Notes under the pieces: model-generated
What the model saw: the letters and a program-made list of their open reading frames with translations, nothing else
Told to the model about the DNA's origin: nothing
Databases searched by the model: none
Source: an uncultured Tolumonas sp.
GTDB taxonomy: Bacteria; Pseudomonadota; Gammaproteobacteria; Enterobacterales; Aeromonadaceae
Direction of reading: 5' to 3'
NCBI RefSeq assembly: GCF_963676665.1
Contig: NZ_OY781378.1
Location: forward strand, 1,208,001 to 1,272,000
DNA length: 64,000 nucleotides
Made by a program: the position numbers and the translations under genes
Shown: positions 5,630-58,343 of the stretch, piece by piece
Layout of the letters: every line of letters begins with the position of its first letter
Position numbering within the stretch: position 1 is the stretch's first letter

Positions 5630-7768
5630 ATGGCTGACTTTTTTGCAACATGCCCGAAAGGGTTAGAATCTATACTGGCTGCTGAACTATCAGGGCTTGG
5701 CGCATCCGATATCAAAGAAACAGTCGCGGGTGTCGCATTTAGCGGTGAGCTTGAAGTGGCATACCGGGCATGTTTGTGGAGTCGTTATGCGTCCCGTATT
5801 GCATTAGAATTAACTTCTTTTTATGCCGATACCGATCTGGATCTTTATCTCGGTTGCTTTAACGTGCAGTGGGAAAACCATTTCTCAGTAGACCAATCAT
5901 TTGCCGTCGATTTCTCCGGCTCTTCAAAAGCCATCAATAATACTCAATACGGTGCGTTAAAAGTTAAAGATGCGATTGTTGATCGCTTCACTAAACGCAG
6001 TGGCATTCGTCCCTCAGTCGATAAAAAAATTCCTGACGCCCGTGTATTAGTGCACTGGAAAAAAGATACCGTTACCGTTTCTCTCGACTTATCTGGCCCG
6101 GCATTACATCAGCGTGGTTACCGCGATGAAACAGGTGAAGCACCGTTAAAAGAAAATCTGGCTGCAGCGGTGTTAGCCCGTAGTGGCTGGCAAAATGAGC
6201 CGTTGCTCGATCCGATGTGCGGTTCTGGTACGCTGTTAATTGAAGCAGCCATGCAGGCTTGTGATATGGCGCCGGGCTTATTACGTCGTCGTTTTGGCTT
6301 TGAAGGCTGGTTAAAGCATCAGCCGGATATTTGGTTGCCCATTATGGCTGAAGCCTCTGTTCGTGCGAAACGCGGACATAAAGAGGCGCTGTTACAAGCA
6401 GATCGTTTTGTTGGGTTTGATATTGATACCCGAGTATTGCAACGCGCTAAAGCGAATGCGAATCGTGCCGGTGTCGGTGACCTGATCCGTTTTGAATCCG
6501 CCGATGTGATGCAATTGCATAACCCTTGGCCAAACAGCAAAGGTTTCTTAGTCAGTAACCCGCCGTATGGTGAACGTCTGGGCGAATTCCCTGAACTGTT
6601 AAAGTTATATCAAAGTTTAGGTAGCGCACTACGTACTGAGTTTCAGGGCTGGCGCGTGACAATTTTGTCTGCATCGCCGGAACTGCTGAGCTGTCTGCGT
6701 CTGCGTGCAGACAAACAATACCGTCTGTTTAATGGTGCGTTGGAATGTCAGTTACGTAATTACCAAATTGCGGATAACTCTGTCGCATCACAGAAAATGG
6801 TGGCGGAAGATTTTGCCAACCGTTTGCGTAAGAATATCAAAACGTTGGATAAATGGGCTCAGCAAGAAGGCATCGATGCTTATCGTATCTACGATGCTGA
6901 TTTGCCGGATTATAACGTGGCGATCGACCGTTACACGAACCATCTGGTTATTCAGGAATATGCACCGCCGAAAACTATTCCAGAGCATGTTGCGCGTCAG
7001 CGTATTCTCGATTTGATGCAGGCGGCTATCGAAGTCACCGGTGTGCCGGGTAAAAACGTGATCCTGAAAGTGCGTGAACGCCAGAAGGGGGAGTCGCAAT
7101 ACCAGAAACTGAATACCGAAGGGCAGTTGCTCGAAGTCAAAGAGTACAACGCGAAATTTTTGGTCAACCTGCGTGATTATCTGGATACCGGTCTGTTCTT
7201 GGATCACCGCTATACCCGCCGTATGTTAGGGCAAATGGCGAAAGGAAAAGACTTCTTAAACCTGTTCTCTTATACCGGTACTGCCACAGTGCATGCAGCA
7301 CTCGGCGGCGCGCGGACTACCACGACTGTGGATATGTCCCGCACTTATCTGAACTGGGCGCGCGATAACATGCGCCACAATGGCTTAACGAGCTGGCAGC
7401 ATAAATTTGAACAAGCCGATTGTTTAGATTGGTTACGTCATTGCGAGCAGACGTTTGACCTGATCTTCATTGATCCGCCAACCTTCTCGAACTCTAAACG
7501 TATGGACGATACGTTTGATGTGCAGCGCGATCATATCGATGTGATGGCGATGCTGAAGAAAATTCTGAACCCGGATGGCCTGATTGTTTTCTCAAACAAC
7601 AAACGTCAGTTCAAAATGGATTTTAATGGTCTCGCTGAACTGGGTTTAGTTGCTGAAAATATCAGTGCGAAAACCTTACCCAAAGATTTCGCGCGTAATC
7701 CACATATCCATAACAGCTGGTTGATCCGTCATGCTCCAAAGACTGACGTATCGCAGGAGCAAGCTTAA
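5630..7768 (+). CDS. rlmL: Bifunctional 23S rRNA methyltransferase RlmKL
   Basis: 712 aa, near the ~700 aa of E. coli RlmKL. It makes m2G2445 (N-terminal RlmL half) and m7G2069 (C-terminal RlmK half) in 23S rRNA using S-adenosylmethionine. Seen: a THUMP region in the first ~160 residues, SAM-binding DPMCGSG at 194-200 and catalytic NPPY at 310-313 in the first half. The second Rossmann fold has LNLFSYTGTATVHAA near 545 and FIDPPTFSNSKR near 615. Six bases separate it from uup, so the two are probably one transcript, an arrangement conserved in enterobacteria. Confidence 0.96.
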   Translation: MADFFATCPKGLESILAAELSGLGASDIKETVAGVAFSGELEVAYRACLWSRYASRIALELTSFYADTDLDLYLGCFNVQWENHFSVDQSFAVDFSGSSKAINNTQYGALKVKDAIVDRFTKRSGIRPSVDKKIPDARVLVHWKKDTVTVSLDLSGPALHQRGYRDETGEAPLKENLAAAVLARSGWQNEPLLDPMCGSGTLLIEAAMQACDMAPGLLRRRFGFEGWLKHQPDIWLPIMAEASVRAKRGHKEALLQADRFVGFDIDTRVLQRAKANANRAGVGDLIRFESADVMQLHNPWPNSKGFLVSNPPYGERLGEFPELLKLYQSLGSALRTEFQGWRVTILSASPELLSCLRLRADKQYRLFNGALECQLRNYQIADNSVASQKMVAEDFANRLRKNIKTLDKWAQQEGIDAYRIYDADLPDYNVAIDRYTNHLVIQEYAPPKTIPEHVARQRILDLMQAAIEVTGVPGKNVILKVRERQKGESQYQKLNTEGQLLEVKEYNAKFLVNLRDYLDTGLFLDHRYTRRMLGQMAKGKDFLNLFSYTGTATVHAALGGARTTTTVDMSRTYLNWARDNMRHNGLTSWQHKFEQADCLDWLRHCEQTFDLIFIDPPTFSNSKRMDDTFDVQRDHIDVMAMLKKILNPDGLIVFSNNKRQFKMDFNGLAELGLVAENISAKTLPKDFARNPHIHNSWLIRHAPKTDVSQEQA

Positions 7769-7773
7769 ACATC

Positions 7774-9696
7774 ATGGCTATTTATTCTATTCAGCAAGGG
7801 TATCTCTCATACAGTGCGGCGCCGTTATTAGATCATGTGGAATTGCACATTGAGTCTGGTGAACGCCTGTGTTTGGTTGGTCGCAATGGCGCAGGTAAAT
7901 CCACCCTGATGAAAGTGATCAGTGGTGAAGTTTTACTGGATGATGGTGCAATCACGCATTTGCAGGATCTAAAAATTGCCCGTCTGGAGCAAGACCCGCC
8001 ACAAACAGAATCAGCTACTGTCTATGATTATGTCGCGGATGGTGTGGCTGAACTGGGTAAGATCTTAGCCGATTATCACCACCAACTTACGCTATTAGCA
8101 GATCACCATGATGACGACCGTGTCATGCGTCGCCTAAGTGAGTTGCAAGAGCAGCTTGATCAGCAACAAGGCTGGCAGTTCGACACCCGGATCAGCCAGA
8201 TCCTCAGTCTGTTATCACTGACTGCGGATACCTCGCTTTCTGATTTATCCGGTGGCTGGCTGCGTAAGGTCGCATTAGCTCGTGCACTGGTTAATGAGCC
8301 TGATCTACTGCTGCTTGATGAGCCAACCAACCATCTGGATATTGATTCGATCGCTTGGTTGGAAGATTTTTTGCGCCAATACAAAGGTGCCATTGTCTTT
8401 ATCAGTCATGACCGTGAATTCATCCAACGCATGGCAACCCGTATCGTTGATCTGGACCGTGGCGTATTAACGTCATGGCCGGGTAACTACGATGCCTATC
8501 TGGCCGGTAAAGAAGAGTGGTTACGGGTTGAAGAGCTGAAAAATGCCCAGTTTGATAAAAAACTGGCGCAGGAAGAAGTTTGGATCCGACAAGGCGTAAA
8601 AGCGCGTCGTACCCGTAATGAAGGCCGTGTTCGTGCACTGAAAGCATTACGCATGGAACGTGGCGATCGCCGTGAAAAAGTCGGCACCTCTAAAATTCAG
8701 CTGGATGAAGCGGTTCGTTCCGGAAAAATCATCTTTGAAGGCGAGGGTGTTAATTACAGTATCGATGGGAAATCGCTGATCCGTAATTTTGATTTCCGTG
8801 TCATGCGCGGCGATAAAATCGCCCTGATTGGTCCGAATGGCTGCGGTAAAACAACACTGATTAAATTATTGCTGGGTGATCTGCAGCCGGATAGTGGTTC
8901 TTTGTATTGTGGTACCAAATTAGAAGTCGCTTATTTTGACCAGTATCGTCAACAACTCGATCTGGAAAAAACAGTGATGGATAACGTGGCGGACGGTCGT
9001 CAGGAAGTCGATTTTGCTGGTCGTCGTCGTCACATTCTCGGTTATTTGCAGGATTTCCTGTTCGAGCCAAAACGGGCGATGACACCGGTTAAAGCACTTT
9101 CTGGTGGCGAGAAAAACCGCTTATTACTGGCGAAGCTATTCCTGAAGCCATGTAACCTGCTGATCCTCGATGAACCAACCAACGATCTGGATATTGAAAC
9201 GCTTGAATTGTTGGAAGAGTTACTGGCGGAATACCAAGGTACATTATTGTTAGTCAGCCATGATCGACGCTTCATTGATAACACAGTAACGCATAGCTGG
9301 TTGTTTGAAGGCGATGGTCGGATCACGCCTTATGTTGGTGGTTTTGCCGATGTAATGGCTACTCGTCAACAGCAGACTGCAAAAGTAGTTACGTCTGCAC
9401 CAGTGGTAAAAAACACCTCTGATGCACGTGATAAAGAAGATAAAACCGCAATACCGAAAAAAACTCGTAAACTTTCGTATAAGTTGCAGTCAGAGCTGGA
9501 CGGATTACCACTTCAACTGGAACAATTAGAAGCGAAAATTGACTCAATACAATCTCAGATCAATCAACCTGACTTTTTCAGTTTGCCAGTAGAGCGCACC
9601 AAAGAAATATTAGATGCCTTACAACAAGCTGAATTGAATTTGGAACAGGCTTTCGCCCGCTGGGAAGAGCTGGAAGCGATGAAGAACGAGGAATAG
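7774..9696 (+). CDS. uup: ABC-F ATPase Uup
   Basis: 640 aa, as in E. coli Uup. ABC-F proteins have paired ATPase domains without membrane segments and act on ribosomes; uup mutants raise precise transposon excision. Seen: Walker A GRNGAGKST at 36-44 and GPNGCGKTT at 353-361; signatures LSGG at 158-161 and 442-445; LDEPTNHLDI and LDEPTNDLDI Walker B segments; and a charged linker between the domains. The last ~80 residues (from KKTRKLSYKLQ) form the coiled-coil C-terminal domain typical of Uup. Confidence 0.95.
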   Translation: MAIYSIQQGYLSYSAAPLLDHVELHIESGERLCLVGRNGAGKSTLMKVISGEVLLDDGAITHLQDLKIARLEQDPPQTESATVYDYVADGVAELGKILADYHHQLTLLADHHDDDRVMRRLSELQEQLDQQQGWQFDTRISQILSLLSLTADTSLSDLSGGWLRKVALARALVNEPDLLLLDEPTNHLDIDSIAWLEDFLRQYKGAIVFISHDREFIQRMATRIVDLDRGVLTSWPGNYDAYLAGKEEWLRVEELKNAQFDKKLAQEEVWIRQGVKARRTRNEGRVRALKALRMERGDRREKVGTSKIQLDEAVRSGKIIFEGEGVNYSIDGKSLIRNFDFRVMRGDKIALIGPNGCGKTTLIKLLLGDLQPDSGSLYCGTKLEVAYFDQYRQQLDLEKTVMDNVADGRQEVDFAGRRRHILGYLQDFLFEPKRAMTPVKALSGGEKNRLLLAKLFLKPCNLLILDEPTNDLDIETLELLEELLAEYQGTLLLVSHDRRFIDNTVTHSWLFEGDGRITPYVGGFADVMATRQQQTAKVVTSAPVVKNTSDARDKEDKTAIPKKTRKLSYKLQSELDGLPLQLEQLEAKIDSIQSQINQPDFFSLPVERTKEILDALQQAELNLEQAFARWEELEAMKNEE

Positions 9697-44192: not shown

Positions 44193-45818
44193 ATGTTTCT
44201 GGAACAAATTGAAATAACAGGATTCCGTGGCATCTCCAGGCTATCAGTAAAACTGGGGCAAATTACCGCGCTGATCGGCGAGAATGCCTGGGGTAAAAGC
44301 AGTCTATTAAGAGCATTATGGAGTCTGCTTGGTCATGATGAATTACCTTATCAATTTGTAGCTGACGATTTTTACCGAGCGCCCTGTGATGGCGCCGACG
44401 GTCAGGAACTTATTATCCGTCTTACCTTCCGGGAACATCGCCCGGGTATCAGTCAGCATTCTCACCGCCTAAACCGATTATCCAGTATCTGGACTCGCCA
44501 TCACTTAGATATGTTTCACCGTATTCATTACGTAGCCAAAGCCACCTTGAATGCGGAGAACATTATCTCAGAACATTATTTTGAAGATGCGCATGGCAGC
44601 CGTGTGTCTGATGAAAATAGTGTGGAATTGATCCGTTTATTAAGCTCAATGAACCCAGTGTTGCGTTTGCGCGATTCCCGATCAATCAGTGCATTAGTTG
44701 AACCTGCTGTCGAACCAGATGATTTTGTCGGTGACATTACCGACTTATTACCGGATTGCACTCCCGACCGGCAACAGCATATTACGGAAGGTGTTCATGC
44801 CGCAGAATATTTGCTTGATCGCTATTTCATGAACGTTCCTCATCAAACCAAACGCAGCCAGCGCGACATTATCAACCAACCAGGTTCATTGCACGGTCTG
44901 ACAGACTGGCATGATCTGTTGCGAAATATGGATAATGACACCATGCAACAAATGCTGGCCCGGATTGGTCATGCTTTGTTGTCATCGCATTCCGGGCGTA
45001 AGTTAGAACACGAAGCTCGTCCTATCTATATTTTAGAAGATCCGGAAAGTCGCTTGCATCCCACGATGATGTCAATTGCCTGGGGGCTTATCCAGCAACT
45101 GCCGGGGCAAAAAATATTAACGACTAACTCTGGCGATTTATTGACCACATTACCTTTGAGCCAGATCAGGCGGTTAGTTCGCACTAATGGCACAGCCAAA
45201 AGTTATCAGATGGATGAAAATCGTTTCACGGCGGATGATTTACGCAAGATCACGTTTCATGTGCGTATCAACCGTCCGATGTCACTATTTGCCCGCTGCT
45301 GGCTGCTAGTTGAGGGTGAAACAGAGCTGTGGTTACTCTCTGAATTGGCTCAGTTATGTGGTTATCATCTGCCTGGCGAAGGCGTGCGTATCATTGAATA
45401 TGCGCAGTGTGGTTATTCACCATTGATTAAGTTGGCCAATGATCTGGGTATATCATGGCATATGCTGGCTGATGGCGATGAAGCGGGGGTTCGATATGTT
45501 CAGGGCGCCAGAAGATTAATGGCCGAGGAGCATCAGCATGGTAGTGCTAGCAATTTGACGTTGTTACCCAGTCGAGATATTGAGCATTTTCTTTTTACGC
45601 ATGGTTTTGAAGATGTCTATCGGCGGGAAGCGGGTAATCGTGATTTGCATAATTTACCAGCGAACAAAATTATCGAGCGTGCAGTTTCTCGTCGCTCAAA
45701 ACCGGGTATGGCATTAGCGGTGATTGAAGAAGCGATGAAGCAAGGTGTTGGTAGCGTACCAAGTCTACTACAAAACATGTTTAACAGAGTTGTAGCTTTG
45801 GCAAGAGAACAGGCATAA
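44193..45818 (+). CDS. ybjD: OLD-family ATP-dependent endonuclease YbjD
   Basis: 541 aa. N-terminal ABC-type ATPase with Walker A GENAWGKSS at 29-37 and the YILEDPESRLHPTMM Walker B region, then a Toprim domain from about residue 370 (LLVEGETELWLLSELA with the catalytic Glu, MLADGDEAG with the Asp pair). This is the YbjD/DUF2813 branch of OLD nucleases, chromosomal and widespread, not phage-linked here. Cellular role is not established. Confidence 0.88.
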   Translation: MFLEQIEITGFRGISRLSVKLGQITALIGENAWGKSSLLRALWSLLGHDELPYQFVADDFYRAPCDGADGQELIIRLTFREHRPGISQHSHRLNRLSSIWTRHHLDMFHRIHYVAKATLNAENIISEHYFEDAHGSRVSDENSVELIRLLSSMNPVLRLRDSRSISALVEPAVEPDDFVGDITDLLPDCTPDRQQHITEGVHAAEYLLDRYFMNVPHQTKRSQRDIINQPGSLHGLTDWHDLLRNMDNDTMQQMLARIGHALLSSHSGRKLEHEARPIYILEDPESRLHPTMMSIAWGLIQQLPGQKILTTNSGDLLTTLPLSQIRRLVRTNGTAKSYQMDENRFTADDLRKITFHVRINRPMSLFARCWLLVEGETELWLLSELAQLCGYHLPGEGVRIIEYAQCGYSPLIKLANDLGISWHMLADGDEAGVRYVQGARRLMAEEHQHGSASNLTLLPSRDIEHFLFTHGFEDVYRREAGNRDLHNLPANKIIERAVSRRSKPGMALAVIEEAMKQGVGSVPSLLQNMFNRVVALAREQA

Positions 45819-49577: not shown

Positions 49578-50915
49578 ATGACCGAACAACTTAGGCCTGA
49601 GCGCAGCCTGCCGGAATTAGTCGGTTGGGTGAAACAGGAACAGCTGGAACTTCATCTTAGTAATGAACGTTTGGCGTTTCTGATCGCGATATCCTCAATG
49701 GCACGGGATGAGCAAACACAGGAATTAAGCGAAGCCGCATTGCATGATGCGTTTAGTTACGTCAGCCAGTTATATGGTTTGATGGATGAAACCTTATCAG
49801 TGCGTGCGAACAACGCGATCAACGAATTAGTCCGCCAACGGCTGTTATCACGTTTTAATACCGACCCTGTGGCAGGCGAGAGCGTATACCGTTTGACGCG
49901 TTTAGCGGTGGGGATCATCGAATTTTATGTTGATCAGCAGCAGGTCAACAGCGTCAAATTGTCACTGTTGTTAGAGCAGGTTGCCGGTGAGTTGGATAAA
50001 GCCTATACCGCTGCAGTGCATGCGACCGATGATTCCGCTTGGGAAACAGAAGTTTATCCGCGCCTGAAATATTCGGTGGAAGAGATCTTAAGTCGCATCG
50101 ATCTGACTCAAAGGGCGATGGATGATCAACAAAATCAGGTCAAAGCTGAGATAGCTGATCTTTTGAATCAGAATTGGACGCAGGCCATCCACAACTGCGA
50201 AAAGCTGCTGCGTGAAACTGGCCAGACGTTGCGTGAATTGCAAGATACGCTCGATGCTGCTGGGCATAAATTGCAATCGGGTCTGCTGAATATTCAGGAA
50301 ACCGCCCGGGCGCAGGTGATTACCTCGGTACAGGTTGAACACCTGACTTTTGAGCTGCAAAGCCGTATCGATGCGATTCTGAGCTGGGGCCAGCAGTGTA
50401 TTGAGCTGTGGGCGCGATATGATCGTCATGTGCATAAATTTATCCGTAACGCGATTGATATGGATAAAAACCGCGTATTTAGCCAACGCCTGCGCGAGTC
50501 GATTCGTGATTTTGATAACCACAACTGGTTATTACTGGTAGCACAAGAAGCCCGTCTGCTGGAACTGCGCGATGAAACGCTGGTGCTGCATAACGATGAG
50601 ATCACCGGCGAACTACCCGTTGCGCTGGAATTCCAAGAAATTCAGGCGCTGGATGAAAAACTTGCTGAACATATCAGCGGCTATCTGGCCGATTTCCAAC
50701 TGCACGGTAAGCCGCTCGATATGGCCGATCTGTTAAAAGATTACCTGCAACAATTTCCTGAATATCAACACTTTGATGTCGCCAGAATGCTGGTCGATCA
50801 AGCGGTTCGTCTGGGTTATTCCAGTGCAGAACTCAGCAGTGCCCGTCATCCGAAGTGGAAACCAATTAACGATTTAGGTGCTAAGGTGCAAGCGCATGTC
50901 ATTGATCAATACTGA
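49578..50915 (+). CDS. mukF: Condensin kleisin subunit MukF
   Basis: 445 aa, near the 440 of E. coli. Kleisin that dimerises through an N-terminal winged-helix domain (LPELVGWVKQEQLELHLSNERLAFLIAI), has a long helical middle, and binds MukB head and neck. The C-terminal winged helix ends in PKWKPINDLGAKVQAHV. Overlaps mukE by 20 bases, so the three genes are translationally coupled. Confidence 0.96.
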   Translation: MTEQLRPERSLPELVGWVKQEQLELHLSNERLAFLIAISSMARDEQTQELSEAALHDAFSYVSQLYGLMDETLSVRANNAINELVRQRLLSRFNTDPVAGESVYRLTRLAVGIIEFYVDQQQVNSVKLSLLLEQVAGELDKAYTAAVHATDDSAWETEVYPRLKYSVEEILSRIDLTQRAMDDQQNQVKAEIADLLNQNWTQAIHNCEKLLRETGQTLRELQDTLDAAGHKLQSGLLNIQETARAQVITSVQVEHLTFELQSRIDAILSWGQQCIELWARYDRHVHKFIRNAIDMDKNRVFSQRLRESIRDFDNHNWLLLVAQEARLLELRDETLVLHNDEITGELPVALEFQEIQALDEKLAEHISGYLADFQLHGKPLDMADLLKDYLQQFPEYQHFDVARMLVDQAVRLGYSSAELSSARHPKWKPINDLGAKVQAHVIDQY

Positions 50916-51618
50916 GTTACCTATCGCATTACGCCTTGCACAGGCGATTGCCAACCCGCTGTTTCCGAAATTGGATACCGCGCTACGCAGTGGCAAACAC
51001 ATCAGTGCCGACGATTTAGATCAGCACTCTTATCTGCTTGATTATCATGATGAGCTGGAAAGTTTTTACAGCCGTTATCAGGTGGAATTAATTAAAGCGC
51101 CGGAAGGTTTTTTCTACATCCGCCCGCGTTCAACTTCAGAAATCGGCACTTCAGTGTTGTCTGAGCTGGATATGCTGGTGGGCAAAGTGCTCTGTTATCT
51201 CTATCTCAGCCCAGAGCGTTTGGCGAATGAAGGTATCTTTTCACTGCTTGATTTGCAGGAAGAGGTGGTTTCGTTAGCGGATGAGCGGCAATTATTGCGC
51301 ATGGTCAACCAGCGCAGTGGCGGCACCGATTTAGATAAGAAAAAATTGCAGGAACGTATTCGTACCTCGATGCGGCGTTTGCGTCGGTTAGGTATGGTCA
51401 CCGCATTGGGTGTGGGCGATAAATTCCGCGTGAATGAAGCCGTGTTTCGCTTTGCTGCCGACGTTCGCACTGACGAAGACCCACGCATTGTGCAGTTACG
51501 CATGATCCGCGAGGGCGAAGCGATTTTACATGATGATGAATTACCAACCCGTGAAACCGTATGGGATTCACTGGATGAAGCAGAAGAAGATGAAGAGCAA
51601 TTGGGACTGGATATATGA
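50896..51618 (+). CDS. mukE: Condensin subunit MukE
   Basis: 240 aa from the ATG at 50896, with AAGG eight bases upstream inside mukF; a GTG at 50878 is in frame but lacks support. KITE-type winged-helix protein (SDELDMLVG, RMRRLRRLGM regions) that binds MukF. Acidic C-terminal tail (DEAEEDEEQLGLD). Ends on the ATGA overlap with mukB. Confidence 0.96.
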   Translation: MSLINTELPIALRLAQAIANPLFPKLDTALRSGKHISADDLDQHSYLLDYHDELESFYSRYQVELIKAPEGFFYIRPRSTSEIGTSVLSELDMLVGKVLCYLYLSPERLANEGIFSLLDLQEEVVSLADERQLLRMVNQRSGGTDLDKKKLQERIRTSMRRLRRLGMVTALGVGDKFRVNEAVFRFAADVRTDEDPRIVQLRMIREGEAILHDDELPTRETVWDSLDEAEEDEEQLGLDI

Positions 51619-54600
51619 TCACGCGCGGTAAATTTCTCTCTTTCACCATGATCAACTGGAACGGCTTTTTTGCTCGAACCTTTGAACTCGATCAGATGGT
51701 GACGACATTATCCGGCGGTAACGGCGCGGGTAAATCGACCAGCATGGCGGCGTTAATCACGGCGCTGATCCCCGATCAGACGTTGCTGCATTTCCGTAAT
51801 ACGACAGAAGCCGGTAGTTCTTCGGCCAGCCGTGATCGTGGCTTATACGGTAAATTACAGCGTGGTCACTGTTATTCCCTGATTGATGTACTCAATTCCA
51901 AAGGGCAACGTTTGTGGTTTGGCGTGCACTTAGAGCAAGTGGCTAACCGCGACAACAAAGTCAACATCACGCCATTTTGTTTGCTCGATGTGCCTGCGGC
52001 GCTGCAACCGACTGATTTTTTACTGGAAAAATTAGATAGCGATAAGGCGAAAGTGCGTCCGTTTAACGAACTGCGCAAACAGGCGGCAGAGCTGGGCGCT
52101 ATTCGTTTCGTCAAATTCAATTCGGTGACCGATTATCACAATGTGATGTTCGAATACGGTGTGACAGCGAAAAAACTCCGTGATCAACGAGATCGCTCAA
52201 GATTTTATCGCCTGATCGAAGCGTCACTGTATGGTGGTATCTCATCTTCCATCAGCCGTTCGCTGCGTGAATATTTGCTGCCAGAAAATTCTGGTGTGCG
52301 GAAAGCATTTCAGGATATGGAAGCGGCGATCCACGAAAATCGCCGTACTCTTGATGCCATTAAAGATACACAGTCGCAACGCGATCTGTTCCGTCATTTG
52401 ATCACCGAAACCACCAATTATGTGGCGGCCGATTATGTGCGTAATCAGAGCGAAAAGAACCGTTTATCCGAATTGGCGCTGCATGGACGTAAGCAGTTGC
52501 AGGATAAACAGCGTTTGATCCGCGAAGAAAAACAGCGAGCGATTTATCTGGCAGAAGAAGCCGAGCAGATGGGTGCCCGTGAGAAACATCTGACCGAAGA
52601 TCTGGAATTAGCTGCCGAGCATCTGGCGAAAGTCATGGCCGCAACTGGCTTGACCAATAAGATTGTGCAATATCGTGAAGATGTTGAAGATCTGAGCGTT
52701 AAAGCGGAAGAGCAGTCGGCTATTACGCTGGAACTGACGGAAGAAAAAGCCGAGCTGGAGCTGCGGAAATTACAAAGTGAAGACGAAGCCGACAGCCTGA
52801 AAAGCCAGTTGGCCGACTACCAGCAAGCGCTGGATGTGCAGCAGACGCGGGCGATCCAATATCAGCAAGCAGTTAATGCGTTGGAACAAGCACAAAAACT
52901 GTGTGATTTGGCGGATTTGACCCCGGATAACGTGGCTGGTTTTCAGCAGACCTTACGCGATCAGGAACAACAAGCAACCGACCAAATGTTGTCGTTACAG
53001 CAGCGTCTGCGCTTAGCGAAAGCGGCGGCCGATCAATACGAACAGGCATTTACTACCTTACAGCAAGTCACCGGCCCGATTTTCCGTGAGCAGGCGTGGG
53101 AACAGGCGCAAAAAGTCATCGAACAAGCGCGTGAACACCGTACATTAGTGGCTCGTCGTGCACAGGTTGAAAGTGCTTTGCTGGATATTCGTCGTAATCA
53201 GGAGCAGCAAAATGCGCTGATTGCCGTTCAGGAACAACTGCTGCGTCAGCTCGAAACGCAAGGCAGTCAGTATGACCTGACTGACAACGAGCAGTTGAGC
53301 GAGTTAGCCGCGGCATTGGCAGAACAGCAAGAGGATTTGCAACAACGCTTAGAACACGATCAGCAAGATCGCATTCGACTGCATCATCAACTCGATGCGA
53401 CACGGCAACAGATTGAACAGCTGCGGAAAAAAGCACCGGCATGGTTGTTGGCGCATGAGAAATTAGAAAAGCTGCAGGAAATGACTGGTGAAACACTCGA
53501 TTCACCGGTTGCCATCAGTCAGTTACTGCAACGGACGCTGGAACAAGAGCGCTCACTCGAACAGGAAAAACGCCTGTTACAGCAGCAAAAAGAGAGCTTA
53601 GAGCAACAGCTGCGCAACCTGCAGCAGTTTGCCGGGAATGAAAACCCACAGTTGGTGCGCATTTGCGAGCAACTAGGCGGCGTGCTGTTGACCGATGTGT
53701 ATGACGATATCTCACTTGACGATGCGCCGTATTATTCCGCCTTATTTGGCCCGGCCCGCAGCGCTATTGTGGTGGTTGATCTGGAAGGTGCGATTAATCA
53801 CCTGAATACGCTGACCGAGTTACCGGAAGATATTTATCTGATCCAGGGTAACCCCGATGCGTTCGATGAAAATCTGCACGATGCCAGCGAGTTTGATAAA
53901 GCTGTGTTGGTGCGAGCCAGTCAGCGAGAAATTCGTTATTCTCGTTATCCTGAAGTGCCAGTCTTTGGTCGTGCAGCTCGCGAACAACGTATAGAAGTGC
54001 TGTCAGCACAACGTGATGAAATTGTTGAAACTTATGCCAAGTTGGCATTTGAGCAACAAAAACAGAATCGTTTATACCATCATCTCAGCCAGTTTATGAC
54101 TGAGCACCTGCATGTGGCGTTTGAAGATGACCCAGAAGCAGCGCTGGCGGTTTTACAAACTGAGATCCGCCAGACTGAGAATAATCTGCAGCAACAGCAG
54201 CAAAACGAACATCAATATCGCCAGCGTGTGATGGCGTTGCAGCAGCAACAACAGCTGGTTGCTCGTCTGCAATCGCAATTTAATCTGTTGTTTGATAATT
54301 CGCTGAATGATCGTCTGCAACAAGCAGAAACAGAATTTGCAACGTGCCAAAGTGCTCAACAGTTCCTCGATCAGCATGACAAGGCGTGTCGTAAGCTGGA
54401 AACATTACTTGATGCGCTGCGCGAAGACCCTGCTGCATTCGATGAATTACAGCAAGCCAGCTTTGCTGCCGAGCAGCAGCTGACGGCCGTTCGTCGCCAG
54501 GCGTTTGCGCTGGATGAGTTATTTGCCCGTCGTGCCTATTTTGCCTATCACGATGCTGAGAGTTTGTTAGGTCAAACCTCTGAAATCAGTGAGCGGTTAA

Positions 54601-56069
54601 AACAAAAACTGGGCGATGTGGAGCAACTGCGTCGTCAGTTAGCGGAGCAACTGAAACAGATCACACAACGCTATCAGGAAGCGCTGCAAATCCAGACTGC
54701 ACTTAATTCCAGCTTACAGGCTAAAACGCAGACATTGCAAGAGTTCGAGCGTGAGCTGCAACAAATGGGTCTTCAGATAGCGGCTGACATGGAAGATCAG
54801 GCGAGAGGTAAAAAACGCGATCTGGAAGATCAGTTGGTGCGTACCCGTAGTCGCCGCACGCAGGCGGAAACGCAATATCAGATCTGCCGCCGCGATATAG
54901 ACAGTTTGAATCAGCGTTTCAATGCAGAAAATAAAGAGTACCGCGCTGCGCGTCATCTGCTGCTGGAACACAAGAAAAACTGGAGTCGTGTATTAACGTT
55001 AGCGCGCACTAATGGCGTAGAAAAACAGCTGAATCGCCGTGAACTGGCGTATTTGGAAGCAGAAGAGCTACGTTCCATGTCCGACAAATCGTTGGGAGCA
55101 TTGCGGTTAGCAGTGGCAAACGATGACTCGCTGCGCGACACGCTGCGCTTATCAGAAGGTAATCGACAGACCGAGCAGAAAGTGCAATTTTACATTCAGG
55201 TCTATCGCTATCTGAAAGATCGCATTCGTCATGACATTATCCGTTCTGATGATCCAATCGATGCGATTGAAGAAATGGAAATTGAGCTGGCGCGTCTGGC
55301 CGATGAACTGAAGCAACGTGAAACGCATCTATCGCTCTCGTCACACGAAGTAGCAGCGAAGATCACTAACATCATTCGCCGTGAGCAAAATCGTATCCGC
55401 GTGATGAACCAAGGGCTGCAAAACATTACCTTCGGTCAGGTGCGTGGCGTACGCTTGAATGTGAACGTACGAGAGTCATATGCGCGCTTATTGCAAACGT
55501 TGGGTGAACACGCGCAGCAACATCAGGATCTGTTTGCCAGTAACGAACTGAGCTTCTCAGAAGCGATGGCGAAGCTGTTCCAACGCCTGAATCCGCACAT
55601 CGATCAGGGCGAGCGTAGTTTCCAAGTGTTGGGTGAAGCGCTGCTTGATTACCGGAATTACCTTGAGTTGGAAATTGAAGTATTACGTGGTGTCGATGGT
55701 TGGTTGCGTGCAGAAAGTGGTGCTTTGTCGACCGGTGAAGCGATTGGTACGGGGCAGGCTATTTTGCTGATGGTGTTGCAAAGCTGGGAAGATGAAAACC
55801 GCCGTCTGCGTAGCAGCGATATTGAACCTTGCCGTCTGTTGTTCCTCGATGAAGCTGCGCGTCTGGATGCTAAATCAATTGCGACACTCTTTGAGTTGTG
55901 TGAACGACAAGATATGCAACTGTTGATTGCCGCACCAGAAAATATCAGCCCGGAAAAAGGCACCACCTACAAACTGATCCGTAAGGTACATGGTAAACAA
56001 GAACATGTGCATGTGGTTGGTTTACGCGGATTTGGTGGCAGCAGCGACACACTGCCATTGAGTGCGTAA
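51615..56069 (+). CDS. mukB: Chromosome condensin SMC-like subunit MukB
   Basis: 1484 aa, nearly the E. coli length (1486). Seen: Walker A SGGNGAGKSTS at about 33-43; long coiled coils rich in Gln/Glu; a hinge around residues 650-780 (VLLTDVYDDISLDDAPYYSALFGP region); C-terminal signature STGEAIGTGQAI and Walker B LLFLDEAARLD. Loop-extruding motor that organises the chromosome and works with topoisomerase IV. Conserved order cmoM-mukFEB. Confidence 0.98.
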   Translation: MITRGKFLSFTMINWNGFFARTFELDQMVTTLSGGNGAGKSTSMAALITALIPDQTLLHFRNTTEAGSSSASRDRGLYGKLQRGHCYSLIDVLNSKGQRLWFGVHLEQVANRDNKVNITPFCLLDVPAALQPTDFLLEKLDSDKAKVRPFNELRKQAAELGAIRFVKFNSVTDYHNVMFEYGVTAKKLRDQRDRSRFYRLIEASLYGGISSSISRSLREYLLPENSGVRKAFQDMEAAIHENRRTLDAIKDTQSQRDLFRHLITETTNYVAADYVRNQSEKNRLSELALHGRKQLQDKQRLIREEKQRAIYLAEEAEQMGAREKHLTEDLELAAEHLAKVMAATGLTNKIVQYREDVEDLSVKAEEQSAITLELTEEKAELELRKLQSEDEADSLKSQLADYQQALDVQQTRAIQYQQAVNALEQAQKLCDLADLTPDNVAGFQQTLRDQEQQATDQMLSLQQRLRLAKAAADQYEQAFTTLQQVTGPIFREQAWEQAQKVIEQAREHRTLVARRAQVESALLDIRRNQEQQNALIAVQEQLLRQLETQGSQYDLTDNEQLSELAAALAEQQEDLQQRLEHDQQDRIRLHHQLDATRQQIEQLRKKAPAWLLAHEKLEKLQEMTGETLDSPVAISQLLQRTLEQERSLEQEKRLLQQQKESLEQQLRNLQQFAGNENPQLVRICEQLGGVLLTDVYDDISLDDAPYYSALFGPARSAIVVVDLEGAINHLNTLTELPEDIYLIQGNPDAFDENLHDASEFDKAVLVRASQREIRYSRYPEVPVFGRAAREQRIEVLSAQRDEIVETYAKLAFEQQKQNRLYHHLSQFMTEHLHVAFEDDPEAALAVLQTEIRQTENNLQQQQQNEHQYRQRVMALQQQQQLVARLQSQFNLLFDNSLNDRLQQAETEFATCQSAQQFLDQHDKACRKLETLLDALREDPAAFDELQQASFAAEQQLTAVRRQAFALDELFARRAYFAYHDAESLLGQTSEISERLKQKLGDVEQLRRQLAEQLKQITQRYQEALQIQTALNSSLQAKTQTLQEFERELQQMGLQIAADMEDQARGKKRDLEDQLVRTRSRRTQAETQYQICRRDIDSLNQRFNAENKEYRAARHLLLEHKKNWSRVLTLARTNGVEKQLNRRELAYLEAEELRSMSDKSLGALRLAVANDDSLRDTLRLSEGNRQTEQKVQFYIQVYRYLKDRIRHDIIRSDDPIDAIEEMEIELARLADELKQRETHLSLSSHEVAAKITNIIRREQNRIRVMNQGLQNITFGQVRGVRLNVNVRESYARLLQTLGEHAQQHQDLFASNELSFSEAMAKLFQRLNPHIDQGERSFQVLGEALLDYRNYLELEIEVLRGVDGWLRAESGALSTGEAIGTGQAILLMVLQSWEDENRRLRSSDIEPCRLLFLDEAARLDAKSIATLFELCERQDMQLLIAAPENISPEKGTTYKLIRKVHGKQEHVHVVGLRGFGGSSDTLPLSA

Positions 56070-56075
56070 TAATGG

Positions 56076-56102
56076 AAGGCAGCCTTGGCTGCCTTTTCTT
56101 TT
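56076..56102 (+). terminator. Terminator after mukB
   Basis: AAGGCAGC-CTTG-GCTGCCTT followed by TTCTTTT. It separates mukB from the next gene by only ~20 bases, so the next gene needs readthrough or a promoter close to or within the mukB end. Confidence 0.8.
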
Positions 56103-56117
56103 GGATAACAATTGAGA

Positions 56118-57044
56118 ATGATGAGCCCAGAGCAAATATTGAGTTCAGCACCGACGGAGTTAATCGCTCGTTTACTGGATAAACGGCAGATCCGTATTCG
56201 TAAGCGCTGGGCCATTATTCAGCTCAACTTATGGTTGCAGCAAGGCTGGGTTACGGCACAAGGTGAGGGCATCTTTAATTTAACGAATGCCGGCGAACAA
56301 GCTTTCCGCCAGTATTTACTCACTCAAGGTGAAAACTCACTGGAGTTGCTGCTACAACAACTGGATATTCAACTGCCAGAGCGTTGTAACAGCCACATCC
56401 TTTCTTATTTGCTAAAACAAGATACCAAAGTCACGCTGGAACACATGCACGAGCATGAAATCAAAGTGTTGCGCGATAGCTATCTGTTGCTGCGTTGTAA
56501 CCTGCCGTGCAGTATTTTTATGCAATCAGGCGAATTGATCGATGTCAGCACCTTGTTTAGTGCATGGGGTGAAGTCGCTATTCCTGAGCGAGCGATTAGT
56601 GCGATTACAAAAATTCTTTGGAAGGAAAAACCGCCACAGCACGTCATTACGATTGATAACCGTGATGCGTTCGTCAGTATGGCATTGCCTGCTGACACGT
56701 TACTGATCCACGCTCCGCTAAAAGACACGACGATGGCTGAGCAGTTATTTCGTGCGTTGACGGATAATATTCACTGGCGCCATTTCGGCGATCTGTCACC
56801 AGTAAGTTTCCAACAAGCCAATTTGTTTGCTGAGCGAATACAGCGGCAGTTAGCGCTGTTTTTACCTGAAAACTGGCCGGATTACCTGCGACTATTGGGC
56901 AAACCGCTTGTGGCGAACGAGAAATGGGCGTTAGCGGGTCTGACGCGTCAGCAGCAAATAAATTTACAATTCCTCTTCGAGAACCAGCAGAAACTGCCAC
57001 AACAGGTCATGGTTTACGCAAAAAACTGGATCCACCTGACATAG
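56118..57044 (+). CDS. DUF2220/JetD-like protein with degenerate Toprim site, next to mukFEB
   Basis: 308 aa from the ATG at 56118 (TTG at 56112 and ATG at 56121 are alternatives). I read three parts: an N-terminal winged-helix-like region (residues 1-70, IRKRWAIIQLNLWLQQGWV), a helical middle, and a C-terminal Toprim-like part with VITIDNRDAF at 176-185 and HWRHFGDLSP at 219-228. These align with DUF2220 (JetD of Wadjet, MksG) motifs VxVENxxxF and hxGDlDxxG. The catalytic Glu is Asp180 here, and the GDxD pair is reduced to Asp225 with Ser227, so nuclease activity is doubtful. JetD/MksG proteins are ~380 aa; this one is shorter. It follows mukB and a terminator, and precedes aspC. Assignment is by motif only. 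Confidence 0.55.
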   Translation: MMSPEQILSSAPTELIARLLDKRQIRIRKRWAIIQLNLWLQQGWVTAQGEGIFNLTNAGEQAFRQYLLTQGENSLELLLQQLDIQLPERCNSHILSYLLKQDTKVTLEHMHEHEIKVLRDSYLLLRCNLPCSIFMQSGELIDVSTLFSAWGEVAIPERAISAITKILWKEKPPQHVITIDNRDAFVSMALPADTLLIHAPLKDTTMAEQLFRALTDNIHWRHFGDLSPVSFQQANLFAERIQRQLALFLPENWPDYLRLLGKPLVANEKWALAGLTRQQQINLQFLFENQQKLPQQVMVYAKNWIHLT

Positions 57045-57152: not shown

Positions 57153-58343
57153 ATGTTTGAGAAGGTGACTCAGGCTCCAGCCGACCCTATTTTGGGTTTA
57201 ACCGAAGAATTCCGTAATGACCCGCGCACTAACAAAATCAATCTGGGTGTTGGTATTTATAAAGATGAAGCGGGTGCCACGCCAATTCTCAACTGTGTGA
57301 AGAAAGCAGAAAAAATTCTGCTGGAAACAGAAACCACCAAGAACTACCTGAGTATTGAAGGTAATCTGGAATATGGTCAGCTGGTGCAGGAACTGTTGTT
57401 TGGTGCTGATCATGAAATCGTGACCAGCAAACGAGCTAAAACAGCACAAGCACCGGGCGGCACTGGTGCACTGCGTATTGGTGCTGAGTTTTTATTCCGC
57501 CAGGGCATTTCTAAGAAAGTTTGGATCTCTAATCCGACCTGGGTAAACCATTTCCAGGTATTCGGTGTCGCAGGAATGGAAACCGCGGAATACCGTTATT
57601 ATGATGCAGCCAATAAGAACCTTGATTTTAATGGCATGCTGGAATCATTATCTGCTGCGGTAGCAGGTGATGTAGTGCTGCTGCATGGTTGCTGCCATAA
57701 CCCAACCGGTGTTGATCCATCACTGGAACAGTGGGAAGTGTTAGCAAAGTTCTGTGCCGAACGTAAATTGCTGCCATTCTTTGACTTTGCTTATCAAGGC
57801 TTCGGTCGTGGCGTTGAAGAAGATGCGGCTGGTCTGCGTGCTTTTGCTAAGTATAACAAAGAGTTGCTGGTTGCCAGCTCCTTCTCTAAAAACTTTGGTC
57901 TGTATAATGAGCGTGTCGGTGCCATCACGCTGATTACTGATAATAGCGAAGTTGCACTGCGTGCCTTCAGCCAGATCAAAACTACCATTCGCGCAAACTA
58001 CTCTAATCCGCCATCACACGGCGCTGCAGTAGTTGCGACTGTGCTGAAAGATACAGCTTTGCGTACTGAATGGATCGCCGAAGTTAAAGCCATGCGCGAT
58101 CGTATTTGGGAAATGCGTGAATTATTCGTGCAGAAACTGAAAGCGAAAGGTATTCAGCAGGATTTCAGTTTTATCACGGAACAAAATGGCATGTTCTCAT
58201 TCTCTGGTTTGAATAAAGATCAGGTAACTCGTCTGAACAAAGAGTTCGCGATCTATATCGTTGGTTCTGGCCGTATCAGCGTTGCCGGTATTACCAGAAA
58301 TAACATCGAAGCCCTGATTGAAGGCATCGCAGCAGTGATCTGA
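57153..58343 (+). CDS. aspC: Aspartate aminotransferase AspC
   Basis: 396 aa, identical in length to E. coli AspC. PLP enzyme interconverting aspartate and glutamate. Seen: the [15 protein letters not shown] start, [22 protein letters not shown], and the PLP-binding Lys in [15 protein letters not shown]. An AGGACG site precedes the ATG. aspC also lies downstream of mukB in E. coli. TyrB is less likely given the overall match. Confidence 0.94.

Follow-up and report, generated by a model that had tools for sequence, protein, structure and literature searches.

A JetD/MksG-like gene with changed catalytic motifs directly behind mukFEB in an uncultured Tolumonas species

The locus behind mukFEB and its fourth gene

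The window analysed here, a stretch of 64,000 nucleotides from an uncultured Tolumonas sp. (positions 1,208,001 to 1,272,000 of contig NZ_OY781378.1), contains the genes mukF, mukE and mukB of the condensin MukBEF, followed by a gene of 308 amino acids (aa). We named this gene (56118-57044) G4, its family G, and the genome of the window G000. A preliminary description, made from the letters of the DNA, had placed such a gene directly behind mukFEB. This is indeed the case, and the next gene is aspC, at 57153. The four genes lie on a single strand in the order kleisin-KITE-SMC-nuclease-family gene, i.e., mukF-mukE-mukB-G4, which is also the order of Wadjet and MksBEFG systems (SMC, structural maintenance of chromosomes). 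The MukF, MukE and MukB proteins of the window all exceed the NCBIfam equivalog cut-offs. The mukB stop codon and G4 are separated by 48 bp, which contain a terminator-like hairpin; the number of terminator-like sites in the region (4, versus 2.4 expected with a standard deviation of 1.7) is in itself not significant. The coordinates of all these features are given in Table 1.

No condensin other than the MukBEF encoded ahead of G4 was found in the genome of the window. G000 encodes one MukB (a single PF04310 match), and neither a Smc hinge (PF06470) nor ScpA was found in it. Eight G-carrying genomes were tested in this way. A Smc hinge was found in four of them (G715, Endozoicomonas, Rhodoferax and the planctomycete), and the Muk-type set is therefore an extra in these four; none was found in G000, Vibrio tetraodonis, Motilimonas pumila and Aeromonas fluvialis. 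Each tested genome has one MukB above the cut-off, except V. tetraodonis, which has two; a second match in G715 is below it. ScpA was absent from the search results of G000, V. tetraodonis and M. pumila, and was found in the other five. These five include A. fluvialis (G1103, C21:19324-19956), where ScpA and MukB are present and no Smc hinge was found.

G4 is a member of the JetD/MksG (DUF2220, Toprim) superfamily. Searches with its single sequence yielded no Pfam family, no NCBIfam family and no PDB sequence (phmmer), and a PF09983 search of G000 detected a separate JetD and not G4, which has no PF09983 match (cut-off 22 bits). An AlphaFold2 model of G4 was compared with the PDB using Foldseek. 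The model is based on a 26-sequence alignment that includes intact relatives, and its mean predicted local distance difference test score (pLDDT) is 89.3. Six matches were obtained at E<=0.001: MksG (8b7f, 2.4e-7), JetD (7til, two chains) and topoisomerase VI (three chains). Structure prediction had been proposed as a check in the preliminary description; the best fold matches are MksG and JetD. For the Endozoicomonas relative, a second model (mean pLDDT 83.6) matches MksG (3.7e-8), JetD, Spo11 and topoisomerase VI.

Profile comparisons gave the same assignment. A profile built from ten degenerate sequences only, eight from the window genus and two from another genus, was aligned by hhalign with five JetD sequences over 187 columns with a probability of 97.1 (E 6.6e-11), and the alignment pairs IDN with VEN, GDLS with GDLD, and LPQQ with LEQE. 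The two stretches that had been read as DUF2220 Toprim motifs from the letters, VITIDNRDAF (residues 176-185, including Asp180) and HWRHFGDLSP (residues 219-228, including Asp225 and Ser227), are accordingly aligned with those of JetD. For a profile dominated by intact relatives, the probability is 99.2 (E 2.5e-19). When 12 G relatives were scanned with Pfam, six, all with intact motifs, exceeded the PF09983 (JetD_C) cut-off (28.5-45.9 bits versus 22); five with changed motifs had no PF09983 match, and one intact Vibrio G fell below the cut-off (16.7 bits). The N-terminal DUF3322 domain (PF11795) was matched neither in G4 nor in these 12 relatives, and is present in the JetD of G4's own genome. 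NCBIfam matched none of the four G proteins scanned. With the JetD models of PADLOC, matches were obtained for three intact relatives (E 2e-12 to 3e-3; 2e-12 for the G of G715 and 2e-9 for an Aeromonas G), but for neither G4 nor the G of M. pumila. The only PADLOC match to G4, CARF3 at E 0.03, was taken as chance.

Table 1. Coordinates of the genes, motifs and signals at the mukFEB-G4 locus (positions in the window).
Feature	Coordinates	Strand	Basis or remark
mukF (kleisin), 445 aa	49578..50915	+	NF003615 634 bits, cut-off 407; Pfam KicB, MukF_M, MukF_C
mukE (KITE), ~240 aa	~50896..51618	+	NF003602 370 bits, cut-off 250; Pfam MukE
mukB (SMC), 1484 aa	51615..56069	+	NF003422 1996 bits
Intrinsic-terminator-like hairpin with T-rich tail, between mukB and G4	56074..56097	+	-16.8 kcal/mol for window segment
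G4, JetD/MksG-like (CAP-like winged helix + Toprim), 308 aa, catalytic motifs changed	56118..57044	+	Fold search, profile comparisons, dN/dS
Predicted N-terminal winged-helix (CAP-like) region of G4, residues ~1-70	56118..56327	+	Structure model; weak MarR-type fold matches
Predicted Toprim (JetD_C-like) region of G4, residues ~120-300	56475..57017	+	Model, fold search, profile comparisons
G4 motif 1, Ile-Asp180-Asn replacing Val-Glu-Asn (MksG E236, JetD E248)	56652..56660	+	Alignments
G4 motif 2, Gly-Asp225-Leu-Ser227 replacing GDLD; Asp225 (= MksG D279) retained, second Asp altered	56787..56798	+	Alignments
G4 motif 3, Leu-Pro-Gln-Gln replacing LEQE (MksG E349/E351)	56994..57005	+	Alignments
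aspC (aspartate aminotransferase)	57153..58343	+	Downstream of G4 in 8/8 genus loci

Further upstream in the window (44193-45818), a 541-aa protein appears from its sequence to resemble an ATPase plus Toprim protein of the OLD type.

Catalytic motifs and selection

For MksG of Corynebacterium glutamicum, the consulted part of PMC10123090 reports that replacement E236A or D279A drastically impairs cleavage, and proposes E349/E351 as nucleophiles. Alignments with the chain numbering show that E236 is the Glu of VEN, that D279 is the first Asp of GDLD, and that E349/E351 are the two glutamates of LEQE. In a deposited JetD structure, VEN bears the replacement E248A. The preliminary description had noted two catalytic changes in G4, Glu to Asp180 and the second Asp to Ser227, and both are seen in the alignments. 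They also reveal a third changed motif that it had not mentioned, as the LEQE glutamates are replaced by PQQ in G4.

All three motifs are changed in all eight members of the window genus in which G4 was found, and the Asp equivalent to D279 is retained in them. All three are intact in 34 of 63 distinct G sequences; 31 of these 34 have the commonest letters, two have PDYD and one has MEQE. The changes differ between lineages: the motifs are DS/TALD/LSAE and similar in the G copies on the aspC side in Aeromonas, SR/GDLH/LPLE and TS/GDLH/LEQE in two genomes of another genus, and QQ/ADLA/LEQE in M. pumila. The G genes of Aeromonas and Motilimonas are often motif-intact. Two individual copies on the mukB side in Aeromonas deserve mention. 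The copy of Aeromonas molluscorum (L110 4759-5757) has VGN instead of VEN with the remaining motifs intact, possibly a fresh loss, and that of Aeromonas piscicola (L104 10001-10989) is split across two overlapping frames, other Aeromonas having intact copies.

Selection was analysed by the ratio of nonsynonymous to synonymous substitution rates (dN/dS). For G in the window genus this ratio is 0.057-0.114, as determined from the 11 pairs in which dS could be measured; in the other 17 of the 28 pairs, the synonymous sites are saturated. The reading frames are open in all eight members, and stretches such as PCSIFM are identical in all eight proteins. The values for aspC in the same genus are 0.013-0.036 (6 pairs). 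Those obtained in Aeromonas are 0.18-0.35 for G on the mukB side (21 pairs), 0.14-0.21 for G on the aspC side (6 pairs) and 0.03-0.06 for mukB (3 pairs). Judged by its sequence, G4 appears disarmed, not decaying, and it is likely to be without cutting activity. The preliminary description had suggested a relic or a repurposed partner of MukBEF; because purifying selection on G4 is strong, repurposing fits better and a relic fits worse.

The changed G4 coexists in one genome with a motif-intact relative. An apparently ordinary JetABCD Wadjet locus is present in G000 (G000:C6 ~400100-406800; L048 10100-16808, - strand). Pfam and PADLOC both identify its JetD, in which VEN, GDLD and LEQE are all present; for the remaining three genes, the assignment follows only from order and size.

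Distribution of G and of Muk-type four-gene sets

A search of G000 and 60 relatives identified G in 22 of the 61 genomes. Within the window genus, G4 was found in eight of ten genomes, and the two misses are genomes that are 63 and 70% complete. At these eight loci, mukB is directly upstream in six, at a distance in one (G008) and off the contig in one (G005), and aspC is downstream of G4 in all eight. The order mukF-E-B-G is also present in a genome of another genus of the family (G019). All six genus members inspected have a hairpin with a T-rich tail in the gap that separates G4 from mukB, and a hairpin of different sequence is present in G019. M. pumila also has the order mukF-E-B-G, with 3 bp between B and G, and no hairpin between these two genes. 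In one further genus of the family (g2), G was found in none of 12 genomes, and mukB was present in all three of those that were searched for it.

In the order sample, 21 Aeromonas genomes have a G match, of which 12 carry two G and nine carry one. As shadow frames in the high-GC DNA confound the distinction between mukB-side and aspC-side copies in four of these 21 genomes, we used the copy numbers only; frame calling also hides some genes in high-GC loci, such as mukB of L133. A scan of the genomes of 84,980 species detected 38 loci: 20 in Aeromonas, four in Motilimonas, nine others and five weak ones. The Aeromonas loci comprise 12 in which a same-strand mukB lies 2.4-9.8 kb upstream, three without mukB within 9-10 kb upstream, and five with no more than 5.5 kb of upstream sequence.

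Outside Aeromonadaceae and Motilimonas, 15 loci have G immediately behind a Muk-type mukB. These distant loci strengthen the link between the condensin and Wadjet-type systems that the preliminary description had raised. Its proposed survey of linkage to mukB gave a divided answer: the linkage holds at these 15 loci and at six of the eight genus loci, and it does not hold for the aspC-side copies of Aeromonas or for three of the four Motilimonas copies. In the class-level search, five of 369 genomes matched (G000 included), and one of them, G715, has a complete set consisting of MukF (442 aa), MukE, MukB (1472 aa) and a G with VENLGAY, HFGDLDPKG and WLEQE. This set adjoins a cluster resembling a cyclic-oligonucleotide-based antiphage signalling system (CBASS), with a DncV-like nucleotidyltransferase, E1/E2 and a patatin. 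No additional set was found in the phylum-level sample, where one of 398 genomes matched (G000).

The nine other loci of the large scan belong to Syntrophobacteraceae, Endozoicomonas elysicola, two Vibrio, two Betaproteobacteria including Rhodoferax, Thermoanaerobaculia, Planctomycetota and Phycisphaerales. All nine have a MukB-like gene directly upstream of G, at no more than 72 bp, and both MukF and MukE were called in six (L116, L117, L118, L122, L123 and L124). Their MukB measures 1470-1521 aa in five and ~1025 aa in L120 and L123, is cut short in L119, and is split over two frames in L116. The short MukB of L120 and L123, both from Betaproteobacteria, is near JetC in size. A further set is found on a Burkholderia pyrrocinia megaplasmid (L183 1-10978), where WYL and SAVED genes are followed by a MukF-like gene, MukE, MukB and 'DUF2220'; the record annotates MukE and MukB as chromosome partition proteins. 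In Planctomycetota, seven of 199 genomes match G, five of them strongly, and the four beyond the one already known have MukB directly upstream, MukF and MukE falling outside these short loci. The F-E-B-G order is found repeatedly in unrelated genomes, where the stop and start codons of neighbouring genes often overlap.

The assignment of these proteins to the Muk type was supported by Pfam, which finds MukB in all ten MukB-like proteins scanned and MukB_hinge in nine of them, MukF_M in seven of the nine MukF-like proteins scanned, and MukE in all seven MukE-like proteins scanned. NCBIfam names both scanned MukB 'chromosome partition protein MukB', above cut-off, and PADLOC gives weak and mixed matches for the ten MukB (the best being JetC1 at 1.2e-10). 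Several matches were set aside: the weaker Planctomycetota matches G1156 and G1269; the weak loci L125-L129 (E 2e-5 to 2e-4), which were not included in the family and of which L126-L128 were used as ordinary JetD; G501, interrupted and weak; and G747, whose gene order and size are those of an ordinary Wadjet. Also set aside was G434 (L090 1850-2347), with a 165-aa G-like frame containing CENLGAF and HFGDLDPEG and no Muk gene within the 9 kb inspected.

Five of the 11 sets with wide context adjoin defence or transposon genes according to Pfam or annotation (G715, Burkholderia, Rhodoferax, L118 and L120), and the Muk-type four-gene sets may accordingly have a role in defence. In the remaining sets with context, no defence or transposon gene was seen by eye, and no Pfam scan of those neighbours was made. 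The neighbour of the Rhodoferax set is an N6 methylase. In V. tetraodonis, the set (L118 11158-15897) is closely followed by TniQ, a Csy2-like gene and another two genes, of which only TniQ and Csy2 were scanned; we take this gene order to be that of a type I-F CRISPR-associated transposon. Downstream of the set in a betaproteobacterial metagenome-assembled genome (L120 13222-18310), a fused TnsA/TnsB-like transposase, a TniB-like gene and TniQ are present, and this set is possibly cargo of a Tn7-like element. A recent gain from phage or plasmid was considered and rejected. One non-chromosomal G used as the query gave no phage record, and no relative was found among 21 viral-contig stretches. 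The plasmid collection contains two records with G, one a chromosome-sized Aeromonas caviae record of 4.9 Mb and the other the Burkholderia megaplasmid.

Origin of G4 and comparison with known systems

The interpretation that we prefer, with a probability of roughly 0.55, is that G4 is a catalytically inactive JetD/MksG member, descended from the nuclease of a MukFEB-G complex and kept, likely as a non-cutting partner of MukBEF. The ancestor of G4 would have been the nuclease subunit of a four-gene MukFEB-G complex working like Wadjet, in which the SMC motor would extrude DNA and a small circular plasmid would trigger the nuclease; the intact relatives may restrict plasmids in this manner. In the common ancestor of Aeromonadaceae and Motilimonas, G would have been located behind the mukFEB that now organises the chromosome, and in the window genus the cutting residues would have been lost and the protein retained. 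G4 would then most likely be a DNA-binding or regulatory partner; for example, it might contact MukBEF at the place where JetD docks and modulate loading, unloading or ATPase activity.

Several observations weigh against this interpretation. Superposition of both domains is poor for the matches at E<=0.001 of both models, with a template modelling (TM) score of 0.30-0.49 and a root-mean-square deviation of 11.6-18.5 A (TM 0.30-0.44 for G4 alone), which we read as probable domain movement. A sequence-profile search of the PDB missed MksG and JetD, and gave two phosphodiesterase matches at E 1.5 that were taken as chance. The equivalent of MksG D279, Asp225, is still present in G4. In genus member G008 (L030 ~6136-8509), ~2.4 kb with two opposite-strand frames lie between mukB and G4 and, because of the terminator-like hairpin, G4 may not be co-transcribed with mukB and may be expressed apart from mukFEB. 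The degenerate G copies of Aeromonas adjoin aspC, away from mukB, and in three other Motilimonas no G follows mukFEB; in these, G lies elsewhere, with aspC on the same stretch. Within the order, G is present in only 27 of 394 genomes; mukB was found in 40 of 119, and G is directly behind it in two of the 39 inspected (G000 and M. pumila), for which mostly at least 1.5 kb downstream was checked, and less at contig ends. Because G is rare in the order and seldom behind mukB, its retention requires losses elsewhere. Finally, the MukB trees disagree on whether the G-bearing lineage branches first (73/83 in favour in the head-plus-hinge tree, with a p-value of 0.34 for the rival in the approximately unbiased test), and the co-divergence figures given below do not exclude a transfer of G.

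Descent was analysed with trees of G and MukB. In the G tree, chromosomal G (27 rows) is separated from the others (10) by a 100/98 branch. When the Toprim tree is rooted with JetD, chromosomal G nests with weak support within the others, beside Endozoicomonas (83/79; root branch 60/88). In a quick full-length MukB tree, the chromosomal lineage that carries G falls within chromosomal MukB, next to family f22, whereas the trees based on the head only or on head plus hinge place the remaining chromosomal MukB apart from the G-bearing lineage (87/98 and 73/83, respectively). Long branches were flagged in all three MukB trees, and L118 was omitted from the head-plus-hinge tree for its branch length. 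MukB and G have mean identities of 24.2% and 24.1%, respectively, between chromosomal and other systems (49 pairs), of 30.7% and 35.7% within the other systems (21 pairs), and of 63.1% and 33.9% within the chromosomal systems (21 pairs). The comparison of the latter two sets suggests that MukB slowed after taking the housekeeping role, and that G may not have done so.

These data also bear on a later capture of G, by which the mukFEB of the Aeromonadaceae/Motilimonas ancestor acquired it from a mobile MukFEB-G system and MukBEF never had a nuclease. This would agree with the weak nesting near Endozoicomonas and with the presence of G in only one part of the tree of chromosomal MukBEF, for which one gain and one loss suffice if that part is nested. 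Both kinds of MukB do co-occur in one genome, that of V. tetraodonis. Moreover, in all 14 pairs that compare the two intact Aeromonas G with the other systems, G identity equals or exceeds MukB identity, a relation that mostly holds among the other systems too. A late transfer, however, should leave G clearly closer than MukB, and the two are equally diverged over the 49 pairs, although this is weak evidence for joint descent because the average mixes in fast, degenerate G. The placement of all chromosomal G on one side of the 100/98 branch also speaks against capture, as does the head-plus-hinge tree, which unites the chromosomal MukB from outside Aeromonadaceae and Motilimonas in one clade (73/83, unstarred), and G would have had to land by chance exactly at its ancestral place behind mukB. 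Inheritance of G with mukFEB is therefore favoured at about three to two, and capture is in our view a serious if doubtful alternative. We consider it unlikely, though still to be reckoned with, that G4 is a conserved DNA-binding protein (winged helix plus dead Toprim) with a job unrelated to MukBEF, located where it is through an old mukFEB-aspC synteny. The steadier neighbour of G4 is in fact aspC (8/8), mukB being adjacent upstream in six of eight loci, separated in one and beyond a contig edge in one; the aspC-side copies in Aeromonas without mukB, the three Motilimonas copies away from mukB and the hairpin between mukB and G4 point the same way. On the other hand, the recurrence of F-E-B-G with overlapping genes points to G working with the Muk proteins in those genomes, and only 3 bp separate the chromosomal mukB and G of M. 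pumila. Retained cutting, with Asp180 in the place of Glu and other residues standing in, is very improbable. Asp180 and Asp225 are acidic and invariant in the eight genus sequences, but E236A alone drastically impairs MksG according to the part of PMC10123090 consulted, and in G4 this Glu is replaced by Asp, the second Asp of motif 2 by Ser, and motif 3 has lost its two glutamates. A decaying pseudogene left by a lost plasmid-restriction system would explain the change of all three motifs and the far greater divergence of G than of its MukB among chromosomal systems; it is strongly disfavoured, and was rejected, in view of the low dN/dS, the open frames, the saturation of synonymous sites in most pairs and the stretches identical throughout the genus.

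Four-gene sets with intact motifs in distant bacteria, some of them next to defence genes, suggest that the chromosome-folding machine and an anti-plasmid weapon share a past. A bolder proposal, tentative and in our estimation rather unlikely, is that MukBEF itself began as a Wadjet-like weapon, MukFEB-G, and that Aeromonadaceae and Motilimonas display stages of its taming. Where G is intact, in Motilimonas and in Aeromonas (here close to the sole condensin), the motor may still license plasmid cutting; the disarmed G of the window genus would be a structural or regulatory fourth condensin subunit. Both the partnership and the descent of MukBEF from a plasmid-cutting complex are conclusions that we infer. 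The relation of Wadjet to the other SMC complexes, and its origin, are described as not resolved in the consulted part of the review PMC10586767, which finds it 'tempting to speculate' on a path from Wadjet to MukBEF. A survey of operons of the Wadjet group (PMC7617805, 2025) inspected AlphaFold2 models of neighbours of operons lacking MksG, and its consulted part states that MukBEF is without MksG/JetD; the lineage of the window is an exception to that statement. Judged by titles and the starts of abstracts, we found no description of a JetD-like gene at mukFEB and no use of the term 'MukBEFG', and in the literature searched MukB or MukBEF occurs together with DUF2220 in the MksG paper only. 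Nor did we find a description of Muk-type four-gene operons; the supplements of PMC7617805 may list them, and we do not claim that they are unlisted. A nuclease-family gene behind a housekeeping mukFEB and intact Muk-type sets elsewhere provide sequence material and a testable protein for the question of how Wadjet and MukBEF originated, on which the differing motif changes in related lineages also bear. The sets also flag possible defence loci whose genes are labelled 'chromosome partition protein MukB/MukE' in databases.

Among the known systems, MksBEFG of C. glutamicum is close in several respects: its MksG (8b7f), described in PMC10123090, is the best fold match of G4 and of the Endozoicomonas relative, shares the CAP-like plus Toprim architecture, and is encoded beside a MukBEF-like SMC set. 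G4 differs from it by its three changed motifs, by the lack of a DUF3322 match, and by its location behind a condensin that is the only one found in the genome. By fold and profile, JetD of Wadjet JetABCD (7til, 8q72) belongs to the same superfamily, and its operon has the same kleisin-KITE-SMC-nuclease order; however, G4 has 308 aa and no PF09983 match, whereas the JetD of its own genome has 391 aa. The SMC proteins differ as well, as the MukB-type SMC measures 1470-1521 aa in seven of the 11 non-chromosomal sets for which most of its length was seen, and the four JetC inspected measure 1080-1150 aa. The fold match of G4 with topoisomerase VI-A and Spo11 presumably reflects the common CAP plus Toprim fold and indicates superfamily kinship only. 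Finally, the mukFEB genes of the window are equivalogs of those of MukBEF in Escherichia coli and its relatives and encode the only condensin found in the genome; directly behind them is a JetD-like gene, of a kind that MukBEF is stated to lack (PMC7617805).

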